Shown: piece by piece, positions 3,536 to 57,802 of the stretch
Layout of the letters: every line of letters starts with the position of its first letter
Position numbering within the stretch: position 1 is the first letter of the stretch
Assembly: GCA_964058845.1 (NCBI GenBank)
Contig: CAXKVR010000325.1
Span: 1 to 64,000 of the forward strand
DNA length: 64,000 nucleotides
Reading direction: 5' to 3'
From: Carex sylvatica
Lineage: Eukaryota > Streptophyta > Magnoliopsida > Poales > Cyperaceae
Notes under the pieces: generated by a model
Database searches by the model: none
What the model was told of the DNA's origin: nothing
What the model saw: the letters and a program-made list of their open reading frames with translations, nothing else
Program-made: the position numbers and the translations under genes

Positions 3536-5875
3536 ATGTCGGACCACGCCGGAACCCTGGTCAGTCGTGTGGCACGCCACCTCAATCGCAAGCTCTCCGA
3601 TCTTATCACCCTACTATTAAACCACAAGGTTGGTTCTTCTTCCCTCAATCTACTTTTCAAGAACCCTCCCAGCTTTCCCAATCTTTCTCACCTAACGATC
3701 AATGGTGTATTTTGAATTGTTGTCAGAGCGCAGGGTCAATCGGCGCAGTTGCTGGATTCGCCATTGCCGTTGTATTCGCATGGAAGGTTTTCAGACCTTC
3801 TCAGCCGAGACCAAGACCAAAGAGGAGGACGAACCCAGCGTCAAATGGTCGGTCTGGAGGAGGACACGTCACAGGGTCTGATGAATCTGATTTAGGTGTA
3901 GTACGGTCCCCTAGGCAGGTATGAATTACGTAATTGTTTATGAATTGACAAGGATTTAGTCTTTTAGGGTTTTGATTTTTGGCTTTTCTGATGGTGTTGA
4001 AGCTTGCACAAGGGGATAACATGAGGAGGAATCTCGGTGGCTGTCGCAAGGTAATTCTAAGGAAAGTAATGTGATTATTTTATTCTTTCTGGTTACGATT
4101 CAAGCAAAGTATCTACAGGACTAGGAACAAAAGCAAAGGTGCAAATTAAAAGTTGAAATTTAAATTGTGTTGTTGTAACACATTCCAAGTTAGTAATCAG
4201 GTCCTAACTAATCTAGTATCTGGTCTGAACTTAGCTTAGTGAAGGCAGATTTATTTGCTTATTTTCCGCTTTGTTAATTCTTACCATGGCAGGTTACTTG
4301 TCAATTGCTCGGTGTAATTCTAGAAGAAAAGAACCCTGAGGAATTACAGGTTACCCTTTTTCAAAACATACTCATAGTTTTTTAAGTACGGCCTTAAGTT
4401 TTAGCTGAACTAACAAATTTCATATATTGTTTTGTCAGAAGCACGTTACCGTAAGGGAATCAGCGGTGAAAGTACTATCTGAATTGGCAAAACATTGCGA
4501 CCTTTATTTGATGGAAACAGTGCTTGATGATGAGACTGAGGTTTGGCTTGAACTTTTGCCTTTTCTTTAATTATCTATATACTTCATAGAAAGTATATGT
4601 AAAGACTGGATTTCAATATGTATTTGTTGGTTCTTGTTCTGTAGCCATGTATTGGGTATTCCATCCAAACAATGCTCAACTTGGACATTTACCATTGTTC
4701 AAGAACTTAGTAACCTCATTTACCATTGTTCTTGGACTTAGTAACCTCATTACCATTGTTCTTGTACTTAGTAACCTCATTTATTATTGTTCTTGAACTT
4801 AGTAGCCACATTTACCATTGTTCTTGAACTTAGTAACCACATTTACCATCAACCATCGTTCTTGAACTTAGTAATCTCATTTACCATTGTTCTTGAACTT
4901 AGTAACCTCATTTATCATTGTTCTTGGACTTAGTATAACCTCATTCTTCGATTTCTCTTTATCTTATTTTCTTTATATGTTTATAAAATTCAATTTATGC
5001 ATTACAAGGCATCAAAATAGTTCAGGCCTTACCTCAGAAACCATAATGGTTATATTGCTGGCTGAAATTGAGATCCTTCTTTACTTTTATCATTGCTGGC
5101 TGTTATCTAAGGAAATAACCTTTGCAGGAGCGAGTTCTCTCTGCCCTAGAGGCTGCTGGTATTTTTAGGCCTGGTAGTTTGATGAAGGAGAAGGTAAATT
5201 ATAGAAATTTGGTTTGTACTACCTTTCTGCACTTTTAATTTTTCTGTTGGTTGAATCCAGTGGCTGTATTTTTGTCATTTGTTCCTTTTTTTCAATTTTT
5301 TTTTTCTTATTTCAATATATTGTGTTTATTTGTATCTGACTTGAGTACTACCGTATGAGATACTACCTAAGGAGTTTATACCAGTCTGGTCTTGACTGAG
5401 GGAAATCAATGAAGTCTTAAATTCAGAGTAATTTGATCATAGAATCAATATAAGCTCAAATTAAAGATGATGAGAATATTAAAAAGGACAGCTTAGGTTA
5501 GGCTAAAACAGTGCCATATTAGACTTGGCTAGACGAGTACCTTTTTTTTTTTTTAGGCAGACTGTAATACTATTTGCACATTTTTCAGGTTCTGTTTTGC
5601 AGCACTGAAATTGGGAGAACATCTTTTGTTCGACAATTGGAATCAGATTTACACATTGACACAAATCTTGATGTAATATCACAGCTATCGGTATGTGTTC
5701 TCCCTCTCCACTTTTTCATTGATATTTTGTCAGAGTAATCTCTAAATGTTTTTACTGGATTCTGAATTGTTATCAGCGGTTTATTGGGCGTCAATTGTAT
5801 ATCTCAGCAATGGAAGAGGGGCAAATAGGTCCAAATATTTTTACTTCTACTAGCTTGGAGCATTTCTTTTCTTGA
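3536..5875 (+). CDS. PEX22: Peroxisome biogenesis protein 22 (PEX22)
   Basis: PEX22 is the peroxisomal membrane anchor for the ubiquitin-conjugating enzyme PEX4, which recycles the import receptor PEX5. Coding exons are 3536-3628, 3727-3918, 4003-4050, 4293-4349, 4439-4540, 5128-5193, 5589-5690 and 5777-5875. All introns are GT-AG and each exon is a whole number of codons, giving 252 residues (Arabidopsis PEX22 is slightly longer). Residues about 32-53 (SAGSIGAVAGFAIAVVFAWK) are the single membrane segment, followed by a basic patch and a variable linker. The C-terminal PEX4-binding domain is well conserved: VTCQLLGVILEEKNPEELQ, DLYLMETVLDD, VLFCSTEIGRTSFVRQLE and the ending FTSTSLEHFFS. The start is the first ATG after a pyrimidine-rich leader (3490-3522). 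The identification rests on remembered similarity to the plant family and is strong. Confidence 0.95.
4687..4942. repeat. Minisatellite of about 31 bp units in PEX22 intron 5
   Basis: About eight head-to-tail copies of a 31 bp unit (atttaccattgttcttgaac ttagtaacctc) lie between exons 5 and 6. Units differ by point changes; one carries a 7 bp insertion (accatca). Spliced product is unaffected. Confidence 0.9.
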
Positions 5876-13957: not shown

Positions 13958-14975
13958 TAATCAACAAATGATAACTTTTAGAACACAAATCTAACAAAAT
14001 GCACTCATTTCTTTGTTTCCATAACAACCAGCAAGTGCACATGAACAAAGACTCCCATGTCTTTCGACAATCCTTCCCATGCATTGTTGCCTGTTCTCCT
14101 AATTTTTAAAAAATTTCATCAATCGTCATAGCGGGTATCATTACCCGAAACCCAAAATGCCTAGAGAGTTGAAACCAAACTTGAACCACATAAGGGCAGA
14201 GAAAAATCAAATGCAAAGCCGATTCCGATGGGCAATCTCAGCACATTATGCACTGGTTCCCCCCTCCCATATGCCTCCTGGCCATCACATCCCCCGTTAG
14301 GATTTTCCCTTTTATCATTAGGTAAGAGAAAATACGTACCGTTGGCGGTATTCTCAATTTTCATACATACGAATGTGAAAAATTCACCTTGCCCGCGGCG
14401 ATCATCTTCTTGTATGCTGAATTTGCCGAGTAGGTTCCATTTGCCGTCCATCGCCAAAGCATTGTATCCCTCCCCGTATTTAGGTGAATAGTTAATTGCA
14501 TCTCCGGCACCAGGGTGTGAGCAATTGGCTCTGCATCCCTTAGCGAAATATTTGGCTGAGTTATTTCTCCTTGCTCCACCATGTCCACCAGTGATCGGCC
14601 ACTCCACGCATCCTGCCAAAAGGAGATAGACGAGCCATCTCCAACCACCCATGCCGTACACCACCTAAAAATATGGAGAATTCTTCTCAAAGCTCTCCAG
14701 AAGAAAGACCCCGCCACCATCCAAGAATTTGGACCAGTGGCATTAAACCCAGTCCATTTGAGAGTTTTGATTGTTGATGCCCACAAGCTAGTCCGATTAG
14801 TATGTGCCCTCCACCACCAGCGAAGAAGCAAAGATGTGTTGTGCAAAGCTAAATCATGCAGCCCCATCCCTCCATTCTTTACTGGTAAACAAACGGTACT
14901 CCAACACAACAGTGAAATTGCCTTCGTGCGTCCAGCAATCAGAGAACCGGACCGTTTGTTCTTGAGTCCAGGAAC
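13958..14975 (-). pseudogene. LINE (non-LTR retrotransposon) fragment, C-terminal zf-RVT part
   Basis: Read on the minus strand, 14909-14361 encodes the conserved region after the reverse transcriptase domain of plant LINEs: KNGGMGLHDLALHNTSLLLR, WVVGDGSSISFWQDAWSG and GTYSANSAYKKM. The reading continues in other frames (around PSESALHLIFLCP near 14210-14170, and ESLFMCTCWLLWKQRNEC near 14060-14000), matching the zinc-binding tail of the zf-RVT domain. Frame changes and stop codons show it is dead, and the reverse transcriptase catalytic part and the endonuclease are missing. The upstream end is cut near the foldback element at 15041. Confidence 0.85.
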
Positions 14976-15040
14976 AAACGTTTTGATATTAGTCTATCTT
15001 ATATATATATATATATATATAAATAGAGAGAGAGAGAGAG

Positions 15041-15431
15041 AGGAACCCGCTAGCATGCTACACGTAGCATAGAGGGCCTTCGTGCAATTGTTCAATATTC
15101 GACTTTTCAAAATTATAACGGTCGATCCGAACCGTTCATCTTGTTCTCCATATTAATATGTGTTTGGAGACCAAATTTTTCATTTTTTTTACTATGTTTT
15201 TAGATTTATTGAAAATCACTATTTTTTTATGGTCCAGATTTGCTAAAAACAGTGATTTTCAATAAATCTAAAAAAAATAGTAAACAAATTTCAAAAAATG
15301 TAAAATTTGGTCTCCAAACACATATTAATATGGAGAACAAGATGAACGGTTCGGATTGACCGTTAAGATTTTAAAAAGTCGAATATTGAGCCATTGCACA
15401 GAGGACCTCTATGCTACTCATAGCATATTCC
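15041..15431. mobile_element. Foldback element, terminal type 'gctagcatgctacacgtagc'
   Basis: The outer arms carry gctacacgtagcatagaggg and ctatgctactcatagcat. The core (ggtcgatccgaaccgttcat, ctccatattaatatgtgttt, gagaccaaattt) is shared with the family. The loop-proximal arm reads agatttattgaaaatcact instead of the usual tattaagccactttgaaaa. Confidence 0.75.
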
Positions 15432-15449
15432 TATATATATATATATAGA

Positions 15450-15882
15450 GAGAGAGTGTGACTAATGTGCATTCGAATGTATATGGGTCGAAATACATAC
15501 GGTCCAAATTCAACTTTTTGAAATCCAAACGGTCGATCCAAACTGTTCATCTTGTTCTCCATATTAATATGTGCTTAGAGACCAAATTTTATATTTTTCT
15601 GAATTTGTTTACTATTTATTAAGTATTTTACAAAATTGTTGATCCAACGGTGGCTGCTGATTTTACTGTTTTGTTAAGTCACCGTTGGATCAACAATTTT
15701 GTAAAATACTTAATAAATAGTAAACAAATTCAGAAAAATGTAAAATTTGCTCTCCAAGCACATATTAATATGGAGAACAAGATGAACGGTTCGGATCAAC
15801 CGTTTGAATTTCGAAAAGTCAAATTTGGACCATATGTATTTCGGTCCATATACATTCGAATGCACATTAATCACTCTCTCTC
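15450..15882. mobile_element. Foldback element, terminal type 'gtgtgactaatgtgcattcg'
   Basis: This is a nearly perfect hairpin: gtgactaatgtgcattcgaa pairs with ttcgaatgcacattaatcac, and the core pairs throughout. The loop near 15655-15675 is ctgctgattttactgttttg. It is among the best-preserved copies. Confidence 0.85.
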
Positions 15883-15904
15883 TATATATATATATATATA
15901 TATG

Positions 15905-16308
15905 AAAATACTAATATGCTACGCGTAGCATAGAGAGCCTCCGTGCAACAACTCAATATTTAAATTTTCAAAATCCTAACAGTTGATCCAAACCGTTCAA
16001 CATGATCTCCATATGAATATGTACTTGCAAATCAAATTTTACATTTTTTACATTTTTTTACTATTTTTTTAGATAGGTAGAAAATCATTTGATCTGAAAA
16101 TTATGTACCATTTAGATTAAGTGATTTTCTATCTATCTAAAAAAATAGTAAAAAAATTCTAAAAAAATGTAAAATTTGATTTGCAAGTATATATTTATAT
16201 GGAGATCATGTTGAACAGTTCGGATCGAATGTTAGAATTTAAAAAATACAAATATTGAGCCGTGGCACGGAGGCTCTCTATGCTACGCGTAGAACCGTAG
16301 CCAATTCC
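15905..16308. mobile_element. Foldback element, terminal type 'atatgctacgcgtagcatag'
   Basis: Left gctacgcgtagcatagagag and right gctctctatgctacgcgtag pair. The inner arm uses the variant tttttagataggtagaaaatc. It belongs to the same terminal group as 15041-15431, the half copies at 20354 and 49570, and the diverged copy at 57803-59183. Confidence 0.75.
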
Positions 16309-16335
16309 ATATATATATATATATATATATATATA

Positions 16336-16742
16336 GAGGTTGCATATCTCCACATATGCTTATAACTCATTTTTGTGTTTCCAATGTTCAAATGGTCGAT
16401 CTGAACCGTTAGATGTGATATTTATATTAAAATGTGCTTGGAGACTAAATTTTACATTTTTCTGAATTTTTTTACTATTTATTAAGTAACTTTGAAAATC
16501 GCTGATCCAACGGTGGCTGCACAAAACAGTAAAATCAGCAGCCACCGTTGGATTAATAATTTTCAAAGTGGCTTAATAAATAGTAAAAAAATTCATAAAA
16601 ATGTAAAATTTAGTCTGCAAGCACATTTTAATATAGAGATCACATCTAACGGTTCAAATCGACTATTTGGACATTGGAAACACAAAAATGAGTTATAAGC
16701 ATATGTGGAGATATGCTTATATAAGCATAGTAGCCAACCTCT
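16336..16742. mobile_element. Foldback element, terminal type 'ccacatatgcttataactca'
   Basis: Outer arms carry cacatatgcttataactcat and its complement. The loop near 16515-16540 contains ggtggctgcacaaaacag. The right end (agcatagtagccaacctct) is longer than the left, which starts gaggttgcata, so the left end has a deletion. It is very similar to 49123-49548. Confidence 0.8.
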
Positions 16743-16756
16743 ATATATATATATAG

Positions 16757-17176
16757 AGTAAGTCTACCATACATTGTAATACATAGGCACCTCTATGCAT
16801 TGGACTATAAATCACAGATTCAAAGTCCAAATGACCGATCCAAACCGTTCATCTTGTTCTCCATATTAATATGTGCTTGGTGACCAAATTTTATATTTTT
16901 TATAATTTTTTTACTATTTATTAAGTCACTTTGAAAATTACTGATCCAACGGTGCCTTTTGATTTTACTGTAACCGTTGGATCAGCGATTTTCAATGTGG
17001 CTTAATAAATAGTAAAAAAATTCTAAAAAATGTAAAATTTGATCTCCAAGCACATATTAATATGGAGAACAAGATGAACGGTTTGGATCGGTCATTTGGA
17101 CTTTGAATATGGTGATTTATAGTCCAATGCACAGAGGTGCCTATGCATTGCAATGTATGGTAGACTTACTATATAG
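16757..17176. mobile_element. Foldback element, terminal type 'gtaagtctaccatacattgt'
   Basis: It is a complete hairpin with ends gtaagtctaccatacattg and caatgtatggtagacttac. The loop near 16955-16970 is gccttttgattttactgt. A second copy follows at once at 17176. Confidence 0.85.
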
Positions 17177-17501
17177 AGTAAGTCTACCATACATTGCAAT
17201 GCATAGGCACCTCTATGCATTGGACTATAAATCACGGATTCAAAGTCCAAATGACCGATCCAAACCGTCCATCTTGTTCTCTATATTAATATGTGCTTGA
17301 AGACCAAATTTTATATTTTTTGGAATTTGTTTACTATTTATTAAGTCACTTTGAAAATCACTGATCCAACGGTGCCTTTTGATTTTACTGTAACCGTTGG
17401 AGAACAAGATGAACGGTTTGGATCGGTCATTTGGACTTTGAATATGGTGATTTATAGTCCAATGCACAGAGGTGCCTATGCATTGCAATGTATGGTAGAC
17501 T

Positions 17502-17508
<7 letters not shown>
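17176..17508. mobile_element. Foldback element, second tandem copy with an internal deletion
   Basis: It has the same ends as 16757-17176. At about 17400 the second arm jumps from taaccgttgg directly to agaacaagatgaacgg, so roughly 100 bp of the right arm present in its neighbour is missing. A (TA)n tract follows. Confidence 0.8.
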
Positions 17509-17538
<30 letters not shown>

Positions 17539-17860: not shown

Positions 17861-20204
17861 ATGGCAGATGGTCAAACAGCTCCATTGACGACTGAACCAG
17901 AACCAGAACCAGAAGAAGAGATACAATCGCTTAAATCGAGGATGATTCTTCGTGAAAGAACCGCTGGACAAGTGAATTGGAGCATTATTTTTCTCTCTGT
18001 AAACATAGAGGTCTCCCCATGCATCCTCCTGATTGTGTAGTTTCAATTCAATTTTAACTTTGATTCTGACGAAATAGTTAAATTTGTAGTTTGTGGTGGG
18101 AATTTATGCATATCAAAGGATTCGATCGAGGAATTTGAGCTGGAAAGCTAGAGCTATTCGGATTTTACCTATGTTTCTTATACCTTCCTTGGCAACCATT
18201 TTCTGTTCACTCTCCTCTCACTTCGCAAGAATCCGTAATTCTTATATATAACTTCTATTATCTGCTTCATTTGTACTTGTTCGTTATACACTTAATTATA
18301 CTGCTGCTGTATTAGGCAGTTAACACTGGTTTCCAGTTGACGGTAAATTACTCTCCAAATTCTCAATTTTACAGATAAACATTGGTTCTACGGTTAGCCC
18401 AGTGTAGCCAGAAAATCATATTGGCACGTGATTAAATGAAACCTATATTTTTGGAGGCTGAATCCTCATTTTTTTTCCATTAAAAAAAAAACATATAGAG
18501 CACAAATCTTATAACAGGGATACAATTTGAATATATATATATTTAAAATATTTCATTTGCAGTATATATTAGAGACAACAGATTGCTTGAAACTCTCAGA
18601 AAGGAGCGCGAAGAAATAAGTCCCAATGACCAAGTAGAATTACTGATTAATGTAACTCCAGTTACAGTTCCAGAAATGCCAAGTGGTCTTTCCATGGTAG
18701 AAATGACAGATCCAGAGATGGAACCTCCGGTGATGATTATACCAGAATCAGCTTCAGCAGGAGCTGCTCCAGTCATGGGAGATTCTTCTTTCGTAACTCC
18801 ACTTATGGTTCAAAAAATTGCAAGTGGTCATTCCATTGAAGAAGTAAGCCCAAACCACCAACTTACGGACGATAGTGAAATGGACCCTCCAGTAATGTCT
18901 GTACAAGAGTCTCTTTCCTTGGGTACTCAAGAATTGTCAATGATTACAGATGCAGAAATGCCAGGTTCTTCCATAGAAGAATCTTCAGTGATGACTGTAC
19001 AAGAATCATCTTCTGTAGGTGGGACATCTACTGTAACTCCACTTGCGGTTCCAGAACTACAGGACGCTGCCTTCTGGCGCTTCCTGGAGTCCAATTACAG
19101 ATATTTCCTAGATCAGGCTGTTGATCCAGTGGAGGACGCTTCGGAGGAAGAACGCTTCTTCCGACTCTGTCATCATCCTGTGCTAATCTATGGTGGCTCG
19201 ATGGTAATTTCATTGTTAATTCGTCTTTCACTACTCATTGTTATTGGAATATTATTCTCAATTTTTGATGTGATAAGAAAATATTTTCTTCTCATTGTAA
19301 CTGGAATGCTGGATTCTTTGTAGAGTTTTGGATTCGACAAATCCAGTGGGGCAAAATGTTTCATGATTTCAGCCAGAACACTGAGAATTTCATTGAGTGA
19401 GGACTCGAGATTTTGTAAGTGGATTGCTCGTCCGGATTCAAGGTATTAGCAGTTACAAATTCTATTATGCTTGCATAGAGAAAATGATTTATTACAAAAT
19501 ACAATCTAGCTAAATTTCAACATTTGCTGATTAAATTCCCCCTTATTGTTGGATCTACTATAAAAAAAAAGTCTTAGAATTACTTAATGCAGATAATTAA
19601 ATTATCTCTCATAATAATTAAGTCTAATATTTTCTTTGTACTTTTTGAAGGTTCAGCGAGTGTGTCCACAAAGTGATAGGTACGCTGAGTGTCAGTGGCC
19701 AGATAAACAACAAATTTCTCACTCCAAATACCGCATACGCTGCTTATGTTGTTTTCAAAATGGAAGACAACGATGTGTGGAGCTTTAGCAAGATGGACCG
19801 AACCACTCAAATTACCATCGCTGGGGATGTCGTGTCTCGTCAGATCTGGACAGGGGCAGAGCAAAGTTCAAGGTATGGGGGTCAATTGAGCCCAGTAATT
19901 TCAAAAGTGTTATACTTTTACACAATGTTTTGTATAGTTTTAAGTCATACAAATTTTATATGATAGACTCCATTCACGTTTGATCCTCATATATAGGTTG
20001 AAAATCTGGCTCCGCTCCTGGATCCAGAAGGATAATTTGCCGAGTGAGAGACCGGACGGGTGGTTGGAGTTCGAGTTGGGAGAGTTTAACAGTGGATACG
20101 AGATCGATGCAGAGGTCAGCATGAGCGCGAGTTTTATTGATACTCAAGGTCACAGTAAGGGTGGGTTTATTGTACAGGGCATTGAGGTCAAACCAAAGCA
20201 TTAG
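17861..20204 (+). CDS. Chimeric protein: Lunapark membrane hairpin plus PP2-B (phloem protein 2-like) C-terminal domain
   Basis: Exons 17861-18010, 18090-18234, 18563-19203, 19324-19442, 19651-19872 and 19997-20204 join in frame to 494 residues. Residues 1-99 copy Lunapark exons 1-2, with the two membrane segments (SIIFLSVNIEFVVGIYAY and AIRILPMFLIPSLATIF) and the same exon lengths and splice phases. At KEREEISPNDQ the Lunapark exon 3 end runs straight into Lunapark exon 5 repeats, so the zinc finger is lost. From residue 266 the protein is the F-box-less part of a PP2-B protein: AAFWRFLESNYRYFLD, FFRLCHHPVLIYGGS, FDKSSGAKCFMISART, then the PP2 domain with TPNTAYAAYVVFKME, RPDGWLEFELGEF and GGFIVQGIEVKPK. 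PP2 domains are lectin-like. The predicted product would be an ER-anchored PP2 protein. The splice model is by eye; a nonfunctional but young copy cannot be excluded. Confidence 0.85.
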
Positions 20205-20353: not shown

Positions 20354-20575
20354 AGAGTATAGCTACGGTGCTATCAGTTGCATAGAGGGCTAGCTCAATA
20401 TTTGAGTTTTTAAAATCTTAACGGTCGATATGAATTGTTCATCTTGTTCTCTATATTAATATGTGTTTGGAGACCAAATTTTACATTTTTTGAAATTTTT
20501 TTACTATTTTTTTTAAATAGATAAAAAATCAAATATCTGAATGATGCAGAATTTTTTAGATCAAGTAAAATTAGG
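20354..20575. mobile_element. Foldback element, left arm only
   Basis: It carries gctacggtgctatcagttgc, then the family core (cttgttctctatattaatat, gtttggagaccaaattttac). It stops in the loop-side segment gcagaattttttagatcaag. The same half element, stopping at about the same place, occurs at 49570-49800. Confidence 0.65.
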
Positions 20576-24261: not shown

Positions 24262-27200
24262 ATGGCGGACGATCGAATACCAGAACCAGTAGAAGAGAGA
24301 GAAGGGGACGATGGAGAAGACTGTACAAGTAGTGATAGCGATAGAGATAGAGATAGAAACAACGACGCTAATCATGGGGAAGGGGAAGAGGAGGAGGAGG
24401 AGGAGGAGGAGGAGGAGGAGGAGGAGAGTAGTGGTTATTTCTCACGCATGCTTCATAAGAAGATAGGAGGAGACGATCTGGAGACGCGAATCGAGGTGAT
24501 CGACAAGGAAGAAGAATCGCTTGAATCGAGGATGGTTATTCGCGAAAGAACCGCTGAACAAGTGAATCGGAGCATGATTTTTCTCTCTGTAAACCTTGAG
24601 GTCTCCCCCATCCTCAATCCTGATTGTGATGTTTCAATTTGATTTTAACTTTGATTCTGACGAAATAGTTCAATTTGTAGTTTGTGGCTGGAATTTATGC
24701 ATATCTGAGGATTCGATCCAGGAATTTGAGCTGGAAAGGGAGAGCTATTCGGATTTTACCTATGTTTCTTGTACCTGCCTTAGCTTCCTTTTTCTATTCA
24801 CTCTTCTCTCGCTTCACAAGCATGTGTAATTCTTCTAACTTCTATTTTCTGTTTCATTTGTACTTCTTCTTTGTTATACTATTTCTGTATTAGGTAATTA
24901 ACACTGGTCTACAAGTTGACGGGAAATTACTCTCCAAATTCCCAATTTTAGACTTAATATTGGTTTTACAGTTAACCCCAGTGTAGCCAGAAAGTCATAT
25001 TGGTACGCGATTAAATGGAACCAATTTTGGAGGCTGGATCCTCATTTTTGCTATTGAAAAATATAATCATATAGTGCACAAATCTAATAATGGAGATGCG
25101 ATTTGAAGGTAGTTAAAAATATGTCATTTGCAGTGAATCTTAGAGACAGCAGATTGCTGGAAAGGCTTAGAAAGGAGCGCGAAGCAAAGATACAAGAGCT
25201 GAAGGAGAGGGCTAAATACTACATGGCTAAACGACATATTCAGGTTTTTAATTTTTCTTGTATAATAGATAACTGCTAATCACCAGCCCACTTTGTTAGG
25301 CACTGCTACCACCCAGGGTTTTAATTTTGAGCTGTACTTAGGGTTTACTGCCAATTTCTTGAGTACCGGTACCTTACCCTGGTATGCCTTGAACCACCAG
25401 ATTTGGCTATTGTGATTTAGTTTTTGTTCTTATATGATTTTGTTAATGATTACATAGGGCGGTCATTAAAAAGATGCCCCTTTAACATATTAAGATACAA
25501 GCGATTTTATTGGTAGAATTATTTATTATTAGTAAATTAATAAAACTGTTACTTACTTTAATTAGATGCACCATGATTCTATTTTTATTGATATCATGAA
25601 TCATGCCATGTTGGGACTCACATTCCAAATTAATCCCCATTTTCTTCCCTTTATATAATCCATAATTTATCGCCTAAATAGATTATATTTAAGAGAGTAT
25701 TAATAATATACATCAAGCAAAAAAACTAATTAAATGTTAATACATCATCATTCAGAACGGATGGTATTGTTGCTAATTGCCAATTTTCACGTGGTTGTTT
25801 ATGCTGTCCCTTTATGTTTTGTTCAAATTGTCGATTTAATTCTTTGTTTTTTTACTTTTTATCAACTCTTAGTTGAGCCTGTACATGAAAAATTCCTGCT
25901 TTAAAAAGATCCTCATCGTACCTTGCTGGTTTTGCTAGGTAAATGTGCCAATCAGATCTGCTCCTAGCTGTTTATTTTCTTAACACAAATCCTCTTTAAT
26001 AAACAGAATGGCCATGGTGAGAGTTCTTCAACGGCATCTTCTTTGGGATCAAGTCTTCCAGGAACGTCTAATACCAGAGATAAAACTGTAAATCATAATT
26101 TATTACGGGGTAAAAGCAGACAACTTCATTCGGATACAAGCACAGATCTTGATGCATGCAAATCCACTGTCGATGATGAAAGTGGCAAAAAGAAACTGAG
26201 GAGCTTGATTATATGCAGCAATTGCCGTATGCATAATGGTAAGTATTACACTATCACTGCTATGTAAGTACTATTCATATCTCACCGAGAATTAGATTTG
26301 AAGAATACTGTTTAATTGGATTATTTTAAAGTTACCTTTTTAATGTACTGATGTTAGGATGCTTCAGTCAGAATTGGTTTTAAGAATACTGTTTAATTGG
26401 ATTATTTTAAAGTTACCTTTTTAATGTACTGATGTTAGGATGCTTCAGTCGGAATTGGTTTTCTGTGTGTTTATGTGTGCTAGAAAAGTCGTGCTCTTTT
26501 ACAATACCAACTTCATAATATGTTTTATACTATGGTTATCAGGATTTGCCGGGAGAGATGAGCTACAGTTTATATCATATAAATGTCCACACTGCAATGC
26601 GTTAAATGGACCGAATAAAGAGCAAAATGGTAGTGACTCAGCTTCTACATCTGGTGAGGGTGCCCCACAATCTCAGCCTTATAATCCATTCTCCATGCAA
26701 GAAATGCCTAGAGGTATTTTTATAGAGGAAATAACTCCAAACCATGAATCAACTGATCCAGAGATGGACCATCCAATTATGATAATAAGAGAATCACCTT
26801 CTTTAGGTGGCGGGGAAGAATTACCAAGTGCCTTTACACCAGTTACTCTCCGGAAATTGCCAAGCGGTCTATCCATAGAAGAAATGACTTCAAACGAAGA
26901 AAGAACTGCTGCCGAAATGGAACCTCCAGTGCTGATTATACCAGAATCATCAGCTGCAGTAACCTCACTCATGGTTCCAGAAACGTCAAGAGGTTTTTCC
27001 ATAGAAGAAATAAGTCCAAATGACCAGCAAATAGAGGATCATGACGTGATCACCCCAGTTGTGTTTGTACAAGAGCCTCCTTCGGCAAGTGGCCAAGTAG
27101 AATTACTGAGTAGACAGAATTCAGGTACTGTAACTCCAGTTACAGTTCCAGAAATGCCAAGTGGTCTTTCCATAGTAGAAATGACCCCAAACCAAGAAAC

Positions 27201-29883
27201 GACAGATCCAGAGATGGAACCTCCGGTGATGATCATACGAGAATCACCTTCAGCAGGAGCTCCAGTCATGGGAGATTCTTCTTTCATAACACCCCTTATG
27301 GTTCAAGAAATGGGAAGCGGTCTTTCCATAGAAGAAGTAAGCTCAAACCACCAACTTATAGATGATCGTGAAATGAACCCTCCAGTTATGTTTGTACAAG
27401 AGTCTCCTTCCTTAGGTAGTCAAGAATTGTCAATGAGTACCCCTGATCCTGCTGCAGCAACTTCAGTTACAGTCCCTGAAATGTCAGGTTTTTCCATAGA
27501 AGAATTAAGCCCAAACCAGAAAGGAAATGAGGATTATCAAACGGACCCTCCAGTCATGATTGTGCAAGAATCACCTTCTGTAGGTGGGCCATCTACTGTA
27601 ACTCCACTTGAGGTTCCAGAGCCACTGGCTGATACCATAAATCCTGATGGCAGTGTCAGATCTCCAAATGACTCCGTCAGCTGGAGCACACCTGGGTCAA
27701 GTACAATTACAGGATCTTCTGGTAGATTCCAAGATTTAACTGAAATTGGTCAAGAGGAAATATATGATAATGATGTGCCAGGCAGTTCAGATAATGAGAG
27801 TTTTGATGCCGATGGCCCCCATGGCTCAGTTAATGCAACTGGAGTTACAGGTAAAGAGTCATTGACCGAATCACACTTACAAAGTGAAAATGAATCTGGT
27901 ATAGATTACAGTACTGGTGGTAATTATGAAAGTGATTCCAGTAGTTGGAGATCGGCTGGTTCTGATTCAGTTTCAAGAAATACAGTTACAGTTTCAGAGA
28001 TACACCCAGGGATGGGTGAGAATTTACAAAGTGAATCACAACAGATGGATGTACATGAGATGAATGTAACACACCCAGATGCAGATTTCAACTCATCATA
28101 TTCAGAGAGTGAAACTGATTCTGACTATGGATCACTTGCAGATGTCAATGAGGAAGAAGCAACTCAAGATCTGGAAACTAGAGATACAGCTGGAGGTGTA
28201 GCTGCAGGAAGTTCAGCTACAGATCCGGAGCAAAACTCAAGAAATGCAGAAGAACAAAATGAGCTTTTCTCATCTGTGTATGATGACAGCATGGACACAG
28301 ATCATGATTTTATGGGAAGCTCAGCTGTAAATGGGGATGAGGAGCAGTGGTCGAATTGGCAACAATCTGAGCCTGTGACAACAACTGGTACACACCCACT
28401 TGAGGAAACTCATCTTATAGATGAAGAGATGCCTCCCACTGAAGCAAGGGATGAAGTGGAAGAATTGGAAGAAATGGAGCAAGAGGATTACACAGGTCAT
28501 GATGACCCAAACCCTGTTGGCTCGCTTGCGTATGATCGGGATAAGGGATCTGCACCACAAATTTCAAGAAAAGGAGTTGGTGGCATGAAAACAGGTGAAG
28601 GTTATTCCTTGCAAATATCTTCGTTAATTCAATATGTGTCATGTGTGGCACTGATATTCTTAATAGTTCTTTAGGTTTAAATACCTTGTGATAATTTTAT
28701 AAGGATATGCATATCTTATCCTAGGAAGAAATTATGTTTTGGTTAAAAAGGCCTTTTGCATGATGAGATTATGTATATACATTTTTAAATGTTTGAACAT
28801 TTTTCTGATCTTATACAAACTAGGCCTGTGTGAAATTAACCATACTTATTTCTTTCATATTATATGTTATATTTGTGCAGATAGTATAATACAGGACAAG
28901 AAGAGACGAGAAGATGTAAGAGTTGAGGAAATACCAGACAAGGAGAGTAGCGTGAAAAAGCAGGTAAATGATGAATATGTTGTTTTTTTGGAGCAATTTT
29001 AGCGTACCCCTGAAGAAACTCAAAATATCCCCCCCCCCCGCCCCCCAATGCCGTTAATCAGAATTATACCCAGACTACCCTCAATTGCTGCTTCTTGCTC
29101 CAAATACTGTCAGATATAGCAGGGTACTTTTATTTTTAAAGTAATAGAGAAAAGAAATGTATGGGGTATATTTCCTCTCTTGTACCGCTGCTGTTTTGTA
29201 TTTGCAACTGGCACCTATCTAATTGCCCCATACAAGAATTCTCATACTGTCAAGCTGGATTTGTGTCAGATTTTCTTGCAAATAAATGAAAAAAGGACAA
29301 ATGGTTCTCTTATTGGTACAGGACCAATCACGTGTAGAGGATATATGGCAAAGTATCTACCTGGAGGGTTTATGGCTTACCTAGAAATATAACTTTTCAA
29401 ATTTCAACCTACATGAATACCCATCTGACCTACCAGAATCCAACTTGGCCAGGATTTATTGAAAGACAATGTCTAAAAAACCCAAACAAGTCGATCCCTG
29501 TATCTGGCTAATCCTGTTATTATGTCTATAACCAAAAGCTGACATGAGCCAAATCCAAAAACTCTCAACCAAAATTTACATAGAAATAATTTGAACCAAT
29601 CCAAAACCAGACAAAAAATTAGTGCTGTTCACAAAGGGGACTCAATCTTGCTTAAACCAGTGCTGAATTACTAACAGGCAAATACAAATTTCTACATGTC
29701 TCTTTGTAGGGAATAAAACCCGAACCAGTTGCTAAGGCTTCCGCAGCTCCTCTATTTATTGATCCAGGTTTGGATCCTCAATCCATACCTTTTACGGGGA
29801 TTGTTACTAGTCCTACTCTGCCGTGGGGCCCCAGTACAGACTTTGAACCGCCACTGGCAGTGGGTCTTAGACATAGAAAGTGA
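24262..29883 (+). CDS. LNP: Lunapark-type ER three-way-junction protein with a long repetitive acidic tail
   Basis: Lunapark proteins sit at three-way junctions of the ER network; the plant versions shape cortical ER. Exons 24262-24600, 24681-24825, 25134-25243, 26007-26238, 26543-28594, 28881-28963 and 29710-29883 join in frame to 1044 residues. The N-terminus is acidic with a glutamate run. The membrane hairpin is SMIFLSVNLEFVAGIYAYL (about 104-122) and RAIRILPMFLVPALASFFY (about 134-152), followed by the coiled segment LLERLRKEREAKIQELKER. The Lunapark zinc finger uses Cys268, Cys271, Cys290 and Cys293 (CSNCRMHNG...CPHCNALN). Residues about 326-635 are six to seven modules of 45-50 residues (core VPEMPSGLSIVEMTPN ... 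PPVMIIRESPS). A Ser/Asp/Glu-rich stretch and a proline-rich end (LPWGPSTDFEPPL) follow. Remembered Arabidopsis members are near 400 residues, so the tail is unusual. Exon 1 ends at GTCTCC, a weak donor, but the same joint occurs in the chimera. Confidence 0.92.
26303..26464. repeat. 81 bp tandem duplication at the end of LNP intron 4
   Basis: The block starting gaatactgtttaattggatt is repeated immediately with one base changed near its end (cagtcagaattgg and cagtcggaattgg), so the event is recent. Confidence 0.9.
28964..29709. other. LNP intron 6 with a C-rich tract
   Basis: The intron holds a run of Cs (11 then 6, split by one G) at about 29030-29046 and no coding sequence. The donor is caggtaaatg and the acceptor tctttgtag. 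Confidence 0.7.
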
Positions 29884-31101
29884 TCGTGGAAATGGAAATG
29901 GGTTCCAATGAAACAGACCCGTCATGCAGATCCAGCTTTGAGTTGTGTATATTTTATTTTGTTTGCATTTTGCTCTAGGCTTTGAGCTTCAAAGTTTGGA
30001 CTAGAGTGAAACCACAGTATAAAAAAGAAAAAGAAATAAAGTATAAGATAAGAAAAGAGATGTGTTGGCTGATTCTGTTTGATCACAAGATTTTGTTACT
30101 TTTTTGTATACCTTTGCGCGATACGTGTGTTAGTGTTTTTTTTTTTTTTACACTTGTCTTATAGTTCATAGTTCCTTGATGTTGTGATCTGTAAGTATTT
30201 TAAGGCAATAGCAAGGAATGGTAAATATTTTGATACCTTTTGTAAGATGGTTTGGCAACTACCACTATCAGATTTTACAGGGACTAGCGATGTATTTCTT
30301 GGTTTTGAGATTTAATAAGTTGAAAATTTGTTTGTTGGCTTGTCCTTTTTTTTTTTTGCCCTTTCTCATTTTGTGTTAAGTTGTCAGCAATTGGAACTTT
30401 TAATGGTCCTATGTGTGCTTGTGCAGTTGTTTTCAATCAATTGAAATTTTCTTTTTCTTTCATGACAAAGCTAGAAAGGTAGAACACTGATAGTTTGATG
30501 ATTATAACCACGGTGCTAGCTGTTAAGAAGTTGTTAAATAGTTGTAATATCTTCTTTTTTGTGTGAAAGAACTGATAGAGGCTATCAGTTGTACATAAAT
30601 GAAATTAACATCAAAATTAAAAATTCCATGAATGTGATTCATGTTGTTGGTAATGTCCTTTTCATGTTATGTATGATTGTATTCGTGCCGGGGTCAAAAA
30701 AGAAACTTATATGTATGCAACAGATTTTTGTTTCTTTAATTTGTGTGGCTAAACTGCCCGTGGGCTTATGATGAGGAAAATCCGTACAATTAATAATATT
30801 TATAACTCCGTTTTCTATATAATCAGGTGTTGATTCGTAGGAAATTATTATTTTAGATTCAGCGATCAAATCTCAACTTTTCGAAAAACTAGACAAAATT
30901 TAGAATTTGAAGTTGTTGTTTTGATCTTGAGATTTGAAGACAATTAAAAATTAAGTATTTAGTAAATAAGATGATATGGTGAACTCTTATGGTTTTGGCT
31001 TACCAATTCTACTCAAATCCATTTCAATAATGTCTCCCTCGGTGTTTGATTTTTAGATGTTGTTTAAAGGTTTCTAATTCAATTTAGTAACTATTTCTTT
31101 C
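29884..31101. other. LNP 3' flank and intergenic DNA
   Basis: The start of this stretch presumably holds the LNP 3' untranslated region. A T run followed by the hairpin gatagaggctatc near 30573-30585 looks like a retroposon tail on the minus strand. No gene is seen. Confidence 0.4.
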
Positions 31102-31109
31102 GCATTGAT

Positions 31110-31638
31110 CAGTGTAACAAAATGCAGTATATGCGGTTTCGAACCGCATAGAAAATTAATATGTGGTATGATATGTGATTCCGCATATTCGGTCGCATAT
31201 TCGGCCGCATAATTTTGACCGCATACTGCATATAATCCACATATGAACCGTATATGATCCGCATAGGGCATATGATTCACATATGAACTGCATACGATTC
31301 ACATATGAACCGCATATGATTCGCATATGAACCGCATATGAACTGCATATGAACCGCATATACCGCATATGATACACATATGAACCGCATATGAACCGCA
31401 TATGAACTGCATATGATCTTGATGTTGTGTATTCTTATGTATGTATGTTGCTTTTATATTAGAAAATAATGGATATAAAATAGTTATACAAACATGTGTT
31501 TCTTATTCTTGTTGCGAGATTATGCTTCCAAATATATATGAATTCTTATTTTAAAATCCGCATATGTGGTCGTATGCTGTATATGCGGTATGGGGTGGCC
31601 TTCTGCATACCGCATAGAAACCGTATTTTATAACACTG
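31110..31638. mobile_element. hAT-like MITE with internal GCATATGAACC repeats
   Basis: The left end cagtgtaacaaaatgcagta and the complement of the right end cagtgttataaaatacggtt form an imperfect inverted repeat. Flanks gcattgat (31102-31109) and gcattgac (31639-31646) are an 8 bp target duplication with one change, as hAT transposases make. The interior at 31200-31415 is a run of about 11-12 bp units based on gcatatgaacc. Confidence 0.75.
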
Positions 31639-53500: not shown

Positions 53501-56500
53501 TAATTTTACCAGAAGATTCATATTGGCACCAATAAAATCATTCAAATTCATTTCAAACAAAATTTTGAGCCTAGCTTCTAAAACTATTAAGTTTTGTTCG
53601 CAGATGTGTCCACAAACATTAGGTGATACTGGCAAGTGTGTTTTAAGTCCATAGTAAGAGAATAAAAAATATAACCAAAATAATTCTTTCCTCTACCATT
53701 ATTCCAGACTGAAGAACCATGTCATTTTACTCTAGTTACCTCGCGGAAGGTCATAAGACTAGGTTTGTCACCAACTGGAGGCATCTGATTACAGACCATA
53801 TGGGCAATGGGAAGTCTGACAGGAGCACCAGGGGGAGCAAGCACACGGCTCCTAGCGAACACCTCATCCATCCATGCACCACCACGCTTTTCAGCAGGCC
53901 TGGAATATGGATCAAAATAGAAATATGCAATTGGTTGGCTGGAAGAGTCCTTTACGCAATAAAACCTGACATCTTGGTTCCAAACCTGAAAATGAAAACA
54001 AGTATTAGAGTAAAGACTAAGGCCTGCATTGTATTGGTATCATACCAGTCAGGACTGATGCTGGAATATATACGAGCTAGCCCACAGGAAGAGGTTTTGT
54101 ATGAATTACCTGGAAACTATTATATTGGAAAAATAGAAAGGCCTCACCAAAATATCTATATCTTGACAATTTTATAGGAGGCTAAAAGATAGGTTAGTAA
54201 CAATCAAATGCACACATTTCAAACTAATGTTCAAGAGCAAAAAAAGAAAAAGAAAAGGAGAGAACAACTCACAGGAGCCAGCCCATCAGCCGCTTCGATG
54301 CTAACATCAAAGAGCTTAGTTGCAAGTGTGAATAGGCCATCCAAAACCTTGGGTAGTGCAAAATAGGGACGTAACTCTTCCTACAAGAGTACAAACTTAA
54401 GTAAGCACCACACTGATTTGTAATCAGAGAAACCAATTACCAATCATACTAAATGTTAGTCACCTACCATAAGTTTTTGTTCCAGAACGTGCCACTTGGT
54501 TATGCAGCTTTTACACTTGTTCATAAGAACTTTTGAATGGCACTTCGGTCAAGTTCTTTTGGGTATTTCAAGAAAGAGTGATTTAAACCAATGCTCACAG
54601 TGTATTTGAGACTCAATATGGGTAAAAGCTTTACCCCAAGGACTTGCTAATTTTCATACCTTTGAGATAAAATGACCCTTTGATTTACTAAGAAGCATTT
54701 TTATACAAAAAGGTGAATTTTAAAAAGCAAACCTCGTTAATATCATATCTAGCCTCGCGCAACCTTTCGCTCCAGAAATTAACATCCCAATGATCAATGT
54801 CATTGGCCTCTGGAGCACCTGACTCTTTTGCAAACGCTTTTACCTCTTCTATATCTGCATATGCAGAACCATATATCATATCTATCAATAACCAGGTGTT
54901 ATATCTATTATAAGAAATTGCATGTTCAAACAAGTTCGATCAAGAATACCAGACCCAACGTTTCAGGTACCAGAAGAAGTTAGCCTATACACAGTTTTTT
55001 TGTCAAAATACAGAAGAAAAACAAAATTAGAGTCCTGTACCAGACAGGTACAGATCTACATACACCCAGGACAGAGAAGTACTATGGTGCTAAAAACTGA
55101 AAGCATACTCCATTTAATGATTAAATTAATGGCCGAACCTTCGGCTGTTACAATATACAACATATATTATATTTAATAAGAAAAAAGCCAGATAATAAAT
55201 GTACCTTTGACATGGTGGTCCCATGAAGCAACACGTACTTTCTCAAGCAATTCTTCCACTCTCTCAATTGTAGCCATTTTCGTTGCTAGGCTCACCTTTT
55301 TAAAAAATCAATAGTGTATAGAGAAGCCAATAAAATAAGTACCTGCTCCTCATAAGCTGTTCCAAGTAAAATCCACAAATAGAAAATTTAGGCTTTATAA
55401 ACTCCCATACCTCAGCATAGTTATTGTAGCCAAGAAGTTTAGCTTTTTGCATCCTCGACTTTAGAATTTGAGTGATGATGTCGGTATTGTCATGATCTCC
55501 ACTGGAAGCACGTGTTATGTAAGCCTTATAAACCTCTTCCCGCAAGGAGCGATTGCTCGCATGAAGCATCACAGCCATGTAGCTCGGTGCATCCAAGGTG
55601 ATAATCCAAGGCCCATTCTCAGGTGTTGCATTTTCATGTCCCTAAAACAAATGCACCAATGTTCATGTCCCTAACAAAATTACATTTTTGAAGTCCACGT
55701 CCAGAATAACTATAAAGAAATAATAAAGTCAAATCTGCTAGTTGAAGTATCACTTAGTGACCACCATGTGTGAGGTTTAGAATAAGAACTAAAGATGGTG
55801 GAAAGAAGTAACCATGAATAGGAAGCTGAATCAAAAACATGGAAAAAAGAAAAAAAGCAATAATTAAACAGGTAAACACATCTATTGAAAAGGAAAACAG
55901 ACAAAATGAGACAAGAATAAAAGAAAATGTTCTGATAAAAAAATCTATATACAGATGATGTTTGGCGCCTATAGGTACTGATCATGATTCCCAAGCTATA
56001 AAGACCTTCAGCACAGAGTCTTAAACTCTTGTATTTGAGAATAATAGGTTAATTATCTACATTAACATATGGTTATGTAGGATTAACTATGCACATGCAA
56101 AGAGAGACTCCTAGATATCATACCTTTGATACGGCTGTCTGTGCAGCTAGGCCAAGTGCTGAGGCAGGCAGCCCTTCTATTTCCTTCTTGTCAACAATTA
56201 CTTTTTCAAACTTTTTAGTGGCATCTAGAACATTCTCACTAAATTTCTGGGATAACTTCTCCAGCTCCTATAAATATTGAGAATAAATTTTTAGATAATG
56301 AAAGCCAGACAATGTATCTCTAAACACAATAAGTATTGAGAAAAATAAATATACTTGTTGGATTTCATTGTACTTCTCTCTCTCTTCATCCTCTAGGGCA
56401 ACACCATCTAGAACAGCCTCCTTAATTTTATCTGAGAGGAATAATTACTACATGTCAATTGTAGCAAACAATATCGAAATACATGCAATTTCTCTAAACC

Positions 56501-57373
56501 AAATAAATTAAGAAAATAATAATATCACAAAGCAACAAAATTACCTTCCACAATCCGCTTACGAGCTTCACTTAGGGATTCCCAAGAGGGTGAGCTCCTT
56601 ATAGACTTGAATGCTTCATAGATGGGTTTGCTTTGTGCCAACCTCAGCCCAAATTTAACTTTCTCGGGCTGTTATCATTTTACCAATTCATCCATAGACT
56701 AGTTACTACTTTTATCACAAAGAAAAATTGTTTTTCGCAAAAGCATGACAAACAATTCAGTCCAATTACCTGGATTTCTTCAATAGCAGAACGAAGCTCA
56801 GTCGAATCCTTTACAGATTTCAGGTGGTTGACAACTCCCCATACTACCTGAAACCGATCTATGATCCTCTCTAATGGTTCCACCAGTTTAGGCCACGTCG
56901 GCTCCACTGTTCTCTCAAGTTCCACCAGATCCTCCTCCTAAAACCACAATGCATTTCAAACAAAATAACTTATCATATATTTCCACCATCCGACCAATTA
57001 TCCATCCAAATAAAAGGAAATTAAAAAAAAAAGAGTTACTAACAAGTCTGCGAATCAGCTCTCTGATCCCAGGTCGGACATGATTCGGCTCGACCACATC
57101 AAACGGGGGGAAATCGAAGTCTTTCAGCAACGGATTGTCAGAGTTGATGAAAGACGGCGTTGGATCAACTGTGGAATCGGACGCCATCGTCGTAGCTGCG
57201 CAAATCGGAGGGTTAAATTTGGGAAGCTGACGAAGATAGGCGGAGAAGGGGTGAGAAAAGGGGAGAGCGGGGCAAGAGTAAGAATGGGAAGGTTTTTTAT
57301 AGAGGAGAGAAGTGTGGAGGGAAAGAGAAATGGGGAGAGAGCGGGTTAGAGAGAAGCGGGAGAGAGAGAGCAT
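50600..57373 (-). CDS. OOP: Oligopeptidase A (M3 metallopeptidase), organellar oligopeptidase type
   Basis: This zinc peptidase degrades short peptides, including cleaved transit peptides, in plastids and mitochondria. Seventeen exons in transcription order: 57373-57044, 56937-56770, 56668-56545, 56431-56355, 56267-56124, 55641-55411, 55295-55205, 54854-54733, 54380-54273, 53985-53740, 53342-53197, 52794-52677, 52362-52203, 51837-51806, 51628-51563, 51090-51019, 50686-50600. They join in frame to 773 residues, near the usual length. The active site HEFGH is at residues 553-557 with the third zinc ligand Glu583 in VELPSQ. Other signatures are [40 protein letters not shown] and the end [18 protein letters not shown]. 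The first 60 residues ([14 protein letters not shown]...) are Ser/Arg-rich and lack acidic residues, as in a transit peptide. A second in-frame Met at 57187 (MASDSTVD) would give a form without it. An in-frame ATG at 57445 would add a hydrophobic stretch and is less likely. Confidence 0.95.
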
Positions 57374-57802
57374 GGTAATGAGGATTGTCGTGGCTATAAC
57401 TATAAGAGGGAGGAGCAGGAGCAGACGGGTAGTGCGCTGGCCCATTTTTTACAAGTCCTCTGGATTGGGTATTTCAGTATTATTTGGGTTGAATATCTTG
57501 GATGGACGGAAAGTTAACCGAGATGTCTATGTTTTGTCGCTTCTCGTCTCTGATTTTTTTACATTTTCTTTGCTTTGCTTTGCTTTGCTTTCTTGTATTG
57601 GACAATTTGGTCAAGGGAGCGTAAAGACTTAAGAGGCCTAATTATAATTTTTCTATTGGTTTAAGCTCTCGAGTGACATGGATATGTTTTGTTGACAGCG
57701 AATATCACCATCATTTTCTTTAAAAAAATTCTCAATTTCTGCTTTTTTTTGTCAAAAAGATAAGTTTTGAGGTGAATTTTAAAATTAAATTTTTGAAAGA
57801 GT
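57374..57802. other. Upstream region of the oligopeptidase gene
   Basis: Read on the minus strand this is the promoter and leader. Five copies of a 5 bp ctttg unit lie at about 57568-57592. No clear TATA box stands out. Confidence 0.4.

Follow-up and report, generated by a model that had tools for sequence, protein, structure and literature searches.

A candidate chimeric gene in Carex sylvatica joins a Lunapark hairpin to a PP2-B domain and carries a MITE in its last PP2 exon

The locus

The window (the whole 64,000-nt stretch of Carex sylvatica DNA analysed here, positions 1 to 64,000 of contig CAXKVR010000325.1) contains a six-exon predicted gene whose first half is Lunapark-like and whose second half is PP2-B-like, together with a complete Lunapark-type gene further along the same strand. 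The exons of the predicted fusion gene are as follows.

17861..18010, plus strand: fusion exon 1, 50 codons; its 3′ part is homologous to Lunapark exon 1 (24262-24600)
18090..18234, plus strand: fusion exon 2, the Lunapark hairpin; 145 nt, the same length as 24681-24825 in the intact gene
18563..19203, plus strand: fusion exon 3, running from the start of Lunapark exon 3 through exon-5 repeats into PP2-B
19324..19442, plus strand: fusion exon 4, PP2-B exon 2; bears the altered Trp15 and Trp22 positions
19651..19872, plus strand: fusion exon 5, first part of PP2-B exon 3; the final 22 nt (19851-19872) are MITE
19997..20204, plus strand: fusion exon 6, made up of 24 nt of MITE, the second target copy and the end of PP2-B exon 3

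Splicing and translating these six exons gives 494 codons plus a stop (1485 nt), and the introns are GT-AG at all five positions. As originally predicted, the joined frame is open throughout, and its C-terminal end in exon 6 reads RPDGWLE...KPKH before the stop. The gene had also been called intact, which needs a qualification: the frame is open, yet it rests on an unproved last intron derived from a transposable element (TE), which the original prediction overlooked. The locus occurs once in the genome sequence searched (64 Mb in 950 contigs, which may be partial).

In a Pfam search, residues 322-492 of the 494-residue protein matched the PP2 domain (PF14299) along its whole profile (1-148 of 148), with E=2.6e-33. 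The score was 115.5 bits against a cut-off of 25, and eight other PP2 proteins scored 165-211 bits. The same search gave neither a Lunapark match (the PF10058 zinc finger) nor an F-box match for the fusion protein, in agreement with the earlier claim that both had been dropped. What is missing on the Lunapark side corresponds to the intact gene's exon 4 and the first part of its exon 5 (the Cys4 zinc finger region). The LNPARK-type motif, which the intact gene has next to its zinc ribbon, is likewise absent from the fusion when the sequence is read by eye. Both N-terminal segments of the hairpin persist, with Kyte-Doolittle peaks of 1.55 and 1.84 in the fusion vs 1.49 and 1.77 in the intact gene.

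The Lunapark half

The complete Lunapark-type gene starts 4 kb past the end of the fusion, i.e., 6.4 kb from start to start, and has the following exons.

24262..24600, plus strand: exon 1, source of the duplication
24681..24825, plus strand: exon 2, hairpin
25134..25243, plus strand: exon 3, coiled coil
26007..26238, plus strand: exon 4, first half of the zinc ribbon
26543..28594, plus strand: exon 5, second half of the zinc ribbon and the repeat array
28881..28962 (approximate), plus strand: next-to-last exon; Carex rostrata protein P0025 matches at 28862-28963
29710..29880, plus strand: last exon, 91% to P0025 residues 974-1030

Across the 64 Mb, PF10058 was reported once, for the zinc ribbon of this gene. 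Its orthologues are Carex littledalei P0024 and C. rostrata P0025, with 92-93% identity over 74% and 100% of the query.

The first half of the fusion is a partial tandem copy of this neighbour, introns included. Introns 1 and 2 can be aligned between the two genes, which makes the fusion a DNA-level duplicate and rules out a processed (RNA-mediated) copy; the argument had already been made from the mere presence of introns, and the alignments uphold it. The K2P distances between the two genes were 0.104 for the 3′ part of exon 1, 0.069 for intron 1, 0.153 for exon 2, 0.158 for intron 2 and 0.176 for the start of exon 3. The stretch directly 5′ of the fusion ATG also aligns to the intact gene, with 19 gaps.

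Exons 1 and 2 had been described as equal to those of Lunapark in length and splice phase. This is true of exon 2, which has 145 nt in both genes, and the 1/2 and 2/3 joints agree as well. Exon 1, however, differs in length (150 nt vs 339 nt in the intact gene): its 5′ part has been shortened by a net 63 codons, and just the 3′ part and the phase agree. For exon 3, the DNA alignment agrees with the predicted joining of Lunapark exon 3 to the exon-5 repeats. The order within this exon is the start of Lunapark exon 3, a shortened exon-5 repeat array (homologous to 27126-27628) and PP2-B exon 1, and the alignment to 27126-27628 contains gaps of 18, 3, 30 and 42 nt once adjacent small gaps are merged.

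Two side observations concern the intact gene and its matches. An 81-bp tandem duplication, 98% identical, lies at 26297-26458 in intron 4 of the intact gene, and a metagenome reading frame (P0028, the sole match among 161 candidates) appears to continue through intron 1.

The repeats also bear on the age of the copy. At 6 of 136 aligned repeat residues, all three compared Carex Lunapark copies have changed and the fusion shows the outgroup state; at five of these sites the new residue is the same in all three. One of the six is located at the weld, and its homology is uncertain. In the tree, the three Lunapark block-1 copies cluster without the fusion at 93/95 (an unstarred fork). Given the retained old states and this block-1 grouping, the Lunapark half probably separated before these Carex species did, although gene conversion might give a false picture. 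A fusion of very recent date is ruled out for the Lunapark half, which retains states that the Carex Lunapark copies have lost.

C. littledalei P0024 (1261 aa) has an internal second repeat block with older states than block 1, and no such second block was seen in the Lunapark gene of the window or in C. rostrata P0025. P0024 block 2 retains the old state at five of the six sites, the remaining site being the one at the weld, and the tree places the fusion repeats beside it at an open fork. The fusion repeats may descend from a block-2-like array, or they may have branched off before block 1 changed.

The PP2 half

Judged by homology, the PP2 half evidently derives from the post-F-box part of a Carex F-box/PP2-B gene, joined to the Lunapark copy within exon 3. 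In tblastn, the PP2-B homology starts at residue 42-53 of four PP2-B queries, whose Pfam F-box falls between residues 5 and 59. On the DNA, the PP2-B part of exon 3 begins near 19063 with the post-F-box start of PP2-B exon 1, which bears out the earlier statement that the protein is the post-F-box part of an F-box/PP2-B protein from residue 266 onwards. The DNA-level alignment to the neighbouring gene and the PP2 match at E=2.6e-33 together put the ancestry of the two halves beyond chance. The splice joints on the PP2 side had all been called PP2-B-type. Two of the three are, agreeing with the tblastn break points of PP2-B genes in the same genome (L031, L032 and L034-L036), but the third is inside the hAT-like MITE.

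A PP2-B tree was built from 14 of the 23 protein matches, all retrieved with the fusion as the query (P0013-P0017, P0019 and P0021-P0023 were left out). It puts the PP2 half within the Carex PP2-B group (94/98) as sister to C. littledalei P0003 (85/83), both forks being unstarred. The branch of the PP2 half is 0.87 vs 0.25 for its sister, i.e., about 3.5 times as long, and the placement of such a long row is unsure.

The PP2-B donor was not found in the 64 Mb of genome sequence searched, a partial sequence in which absence says little. The best DNA match outside the MITE, L030 (C38:265486; 73% over 105 nt), was considered as the donor and ruled out, as no last PP2-B exon was matched there. L030 itself (4358-5058, G000:C38) is a PP2-B piece with the first two exons and no matched last exon, perhaps a broken copy, and no other own-genome match resembles the beginning of the PP2 half as closely (57% over residues 265-313). 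Another contig of the same sequence (G000 C371, 85 kb) carries four PP2 loci above the family cut-off between about 9 and 77 kb.

A PP2-B gene that still has its F-box was looked for nearby, and tblastn found none in the window. One other PP2-B query match fell below E=0.05 in the window (E=0.004 at 31039-31215, 29% over 62 residues); it lies in the frame of a reiterated peptide and is taken as low complexity. The open frame at 31156-31434 on the minus strand consists of a reiterated short peptide (FICGSY-like) and is apparently a degenerate tandem repeat. In C. littledalei, the same longest-sequence figure (18275386) is listed for Lunapark P0024 and for PP2-B P0001 and P0003, and both parents may share one chromosome in that species; the C. 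rostrata figures differ.

The MITE and the last intron

The last PP2 exon of the fusion is interrupted by a small element flanked by a target site duplication.

19843..19850, plus strand: left copy of the 8-bp target site duplication, GATCTGGA
19851..20020, plus strand: hAT-like MITE of 170 bp with inverted ends, CAGGGGCAGAGC... / ...GGCTCCGCTCCTG
20021..20028, plus strand: right copy of the target site duplication, GATCCAGA, a 6/8 match to the left copy

The element is a hAT-type MITE; the superfamily label is one that we presume from the 8-bp duplication and the end sequence. PP2-B homology ends at about 19843-19849 and resumes at about 20034, and the PP2 exon is in frame once the MITE and one target copy are removed, i.e., at the empty site. 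The last PP2-B exon is matched in 11 of 14 PP2 loci of the same genome, every time as one uninterrupted match. Parts of 19844-20027 match a repeat found on many contigs, with 15 further matches on 12 contigs in a DNA search. Twelve of these were examined, and ends (chosen by script for the best target match) were identified in nine, with a target match of 8/8 in four copies, 7/8 in two, and 6/8, 5/8 and 4/8 in one each; the other three gave no ends. The copy in the fusion is 0.19 from the family majority (0.12-0.21 for the nine others) and therefore does not look young.

The proposed last intron (19873-19996) lies entirely within the MITE and is not of the PP2-B type. Splicing it out leaves 54 nt of added sequence, i.e., 18 codons, in frame, and in the protein alignment this insertion falls in a loop of variable length among PP2-B proteins. 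The unspliced frame terminates at 19963, for a product of about 455 residues.

Other repeats lie in the vicinity. Nested near-perfect inverted repeats at 17001-17512 (arms of 44-108 nt, 94-98% complementary) are MITE-like and end about 350 bp 5′ of the fusion ATG, with a related arm at 20409-20512. Long palindromic AT-rich elements of similar make-up occupy approximately 15060-16320 and 16340-16750.

Other features of the window

Two overlapping open frames at 14161-14993 on the minus strand have no Pfam match; we take them to resemble the tail of a plant non-LTR reverse transcriptase. Also on the minus strand, 55303-57448 belongs to peptidase family M3 (PF01432, E=1.1e-10 on frame 55303-55641), and the frame at 56918-57448, which has no Pfam match, may be the first exon of this gene. 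The tRNA gene search found none.

The sugar site

Among the residues that hold the sugar in Nictaba are Trp15 and Trp41, and Tyr21 is part of the pocket (PMC12355970). Modelling of Nictaba named Trp15, Trp22, Glu138 and Glu145, and mutation indicated that the tryptophans matter (PMC5767604, available portion). We compared these positions in an alignment of the fusion to Nictaba chain 8ad2 and 14 PP2-B proteins. At positions 15, 22 and 41 the fusion has L, C and T, and the other PP2-B proteins have W in 14, 14 and 13 cases out of 14. The Tyr21 position holds F in the fusion and Y in 14/14 others, and position 151 holds S both in the fusion and in its sister P0003. Because Trp15, Trp22 and Trp41 are replaced, Nictaba-kind sugar binding by the PP2 domain of the fusion is unlikely. 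The label “lectin-like” that had been given to this domain took no account of the sugar site, which is lost.

Selection and the reading frame

Near-neutral substitution in the fusion conflicts with a preserved frame, and each side of this conflict has several lines of evidence. On the substitution side, pairwise dN/dS between the Lunapark half and the intact gene was 0.54 (95% 0.34-0.93), calculated on 235 of the 265 Lunapark-half codons in blocks set by hand. When replacements in the repeats were polarised, 19 were assigned to the fusion and 6 to Lunapark (one of each sitting at the weld), and 2 were ambiguous. Rough arithmetic, which assumes that synonymous change is evenly split between the branches, gives a fusion-branch omega of about 0.9, which is near neutral. 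Exon 2 is as diverged as the introns (K2P 0.153 vs 0.069 and 0.158), and the hairpin barely varies among the three Carex Lunaparks in an alignment that left out isoforms P0026 and P0027. Of 84-93 columns that do not vary among 11 sedge PP2-B proteins, the PP2 half breaks 27-32, vs 0-9 for held-out sedge proteins.

On the frame side, we simulated neutral change on the fusion frame with its MITE-derived codons. The probability of no stop in 494 codons was 0.010-0.068 at a branch divergence of 0.05-0.09. The Lunapark half alone is not remarkable (0.115-0.290), and for the PP2 half alone, neutral change replacing 30% of residues left no stop in about 2% of simulations. No frame-breaking indels were observed, with 17.6 expected at the intron rate and 5.9 at a third of it.

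Among the indels counted, 5/5 in coding sequence were multiples of three vs 3/12 in introns (Fisher p=0.009), a test weakened by the possibility that repeat arrays favour in-frame gaps beyond what chance would give. The five coding indels result from manual grouping of gaps: four are in exon 3 (18, 3, 30 and 42 nt, the 30 being displayed as 3+6+21) and the fifth is the net 189 nt in exon 1, including one 6-nt gap. The count leaves out the exon 3/exon-5-repeat weld and two short cuts just after it.

dN/dS had been put forward as a check on the fusion, and it gives a divided answer: there is little purifying selection on the fusion branch, yet the frame looks protected. The likeliest way to reconcile the two would be a translated protein under loose or changed constraint.

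Interpretation

Our preferred reading, to which we give about an even chance, is that the locus is a chimeric gene, old and fast-evolving, whose frame is protected and whose product would be an ER-hairpin protein carrying a cytosolic, non-lectin PP2 domain. The sequence itself establishes a partial tandem copy of Lunapark (exons 1-2, the first part of exon 3 and a reduced run of exon-5 repeats) that is welded, inside a single exon, to what follows the F-box in a Carex F-box/PP2-B gene, and a hAT-like MITE in the final PP2 exon. On our reading the MITE would serve as a new intron whose removal leaves 18 residues inserted in frame, in a loop of variable length, and selection would have kept the frame while letting the residues change almost freely.

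In yeast and mammals, both ends of Lunapark are cytosolic, so the tail of the hairpin protein would hold its PP2 fold, which would have ceased to be a lectin, on the cytosolic side of the ER membrane. Nictaba-type proteins occur in the cytosol. If the gene is expressed, and only then, the protein would most plausibly be a tether or decoy engaging Lunapark or PP2-B partners, for which we see moderate odds. It would do so without the zinc finger (dimerisation) and without the F-box (SCF recruitment). In yeast, the Lunapark zinc finger mediates homodimerisation, according to the part of PMC6055799 available. The more specific proposal, in which an expressed, fast-evolving ER protein has a PP2 domain without sugar binding, a TE that became a working intron and a role as adaptor or decoy for Lunapark or PP2-B partners, is rather unlikely when taken as a whole. 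If it is true, turning the TE into a working intron let the gene survive the MITE insertion.

The same features could belong to a decaying chimeric pseudogene that arose by accidental duplication and fusion, had its PP2 exon broken by the MITE and owes its open frame to luck or to what is left from an earlier period of function. We regard this as quite possible, if somewhat short of an even chance. A fusion-branch omega near 1, the loss of Trp15/22/41, the long PP2 branch (0.87 vs 0.25 for its sister) and the lack of an orthologue among the protein matches are all what such a pseudogene would give. A MITE in a coding exon, with a target duplication that has diverged to 6/8, is plain disruption unless it is spliced, but what remains of the MITE after splicing is exactly in frame. 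Likewise, a stop-free Lunapark half is not unusual if neutral (P 0.115-0.290), but 494 codons free of stops are less easily explained (P 0.010-0.068), as are zero frame-breaking indels where 5.9-17.6 are expected and coding indels that, where counted, are all in frame.

That the locus encodes an intact new lectin receptor, displaying a sugar-binding PP2 domain on the ER membrane, is very improbable: the hairpin is retained and the PP2 match spans the entire profile (1-148 of 148), yet Trp15, Trp22 and Trp41, present as W in 14, 14 and 13 of 14 other proteins, have become L, C and T. It is likewise very improbable that two separate genes, or an assembly join, only resemble one gene. The junction falls within exon 18563-19203, which is open, starts as Lunapark and ends at a PP2-B splice joint. 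When four PP2-B proteins and one Lunapark protein were used as tblastn queries, neither a piece of an F-box nor a Lunapark remnant turned up alongside it in the window, and the locus is present once in 64 Mb.

Comparison with known systems

The fusion as a whole found no counterpart among known proteins. The protein search scored the 8000 candidates sharing most words, from a database that includes C. littledalei and C. rostrata proteins, and among its 23 matches none covers more than 55% of the query by best local alignment. An orthologue in a relative, which would have lent weight to the original prediction, was therefore not found in this search. Nor did the literature searched contain an account combining “Lunapark” with “phloem protein 2”, and as far as seen the architecture is undescribed, as had been claimed. 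We know of no other Lunapark hairpin with a foreign cytosolic domain, and the fusion would be the first, if expressed.

The Lunapark proteins of plants are represented by Arabidopsis AtLNP1/2, ER cisterna-forming hairpin proteins, which the fusion resembles in its two N-terminal hydrophobic segments (PMC6055799, as far as its available text goes). It has the same exon 2 and splice phase as its tandem neighbour, a Lunapark-type gene with a zinc ribbon. Compared with Lunapark, it has neither the Cys4 zinc finger nor the LNPARK-type motif, and it keeps only a minor part of the coiled coil. The fusion is like F-box/PP2-B (F-box-Nictaba) proteins in its full-length PP2 domain and the first two PP2-B joints, and unlike them and the sister P0003 in lacking the F-box and the sugar-site tryptophans, in having a MITE in the last exon and in its longer branch. 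PP2/Nictaba domains occur in combination with F-box, TIR, AIG1 and protein kinase domains (PMC5485960), and the Lunapark hairpin is not among the partners named in the available part of that paper.

The MITE also has parallels. hAT MITEs within plant genes create splice variants (PMC12595863), and the element described here is like them, as presented in the available text, in being small and non-autonomous, in its inverted ends and 8-bp target duplication, and in supplying GT and AG. It is unlike them in that the whole predicted intron is inside the element, within a coding exon.

For the mode of formation, the closest comparison is with rice. In four Oryza species, 310 fusion genes have been described, and 4 of 69 expressed ones follow the pattern of Fig. 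6C, in which a tandem copy of one parent is combined with a copy of an unlinked parent (PMC9199173, available portion). The Carex fusion is like these Fig. 6C fusions in having an adjacent parent and in its formation through duplication; the parents differ. Plant fusion genes that arose via a tandem copy of one parent are therefore already known, and it is the parent pair that is unusual here. With its tandem partial copy, its weld inside an exon and a MITE supplying a possible intron, the locus is a clear case of the assembly of a plant chimeric gene.
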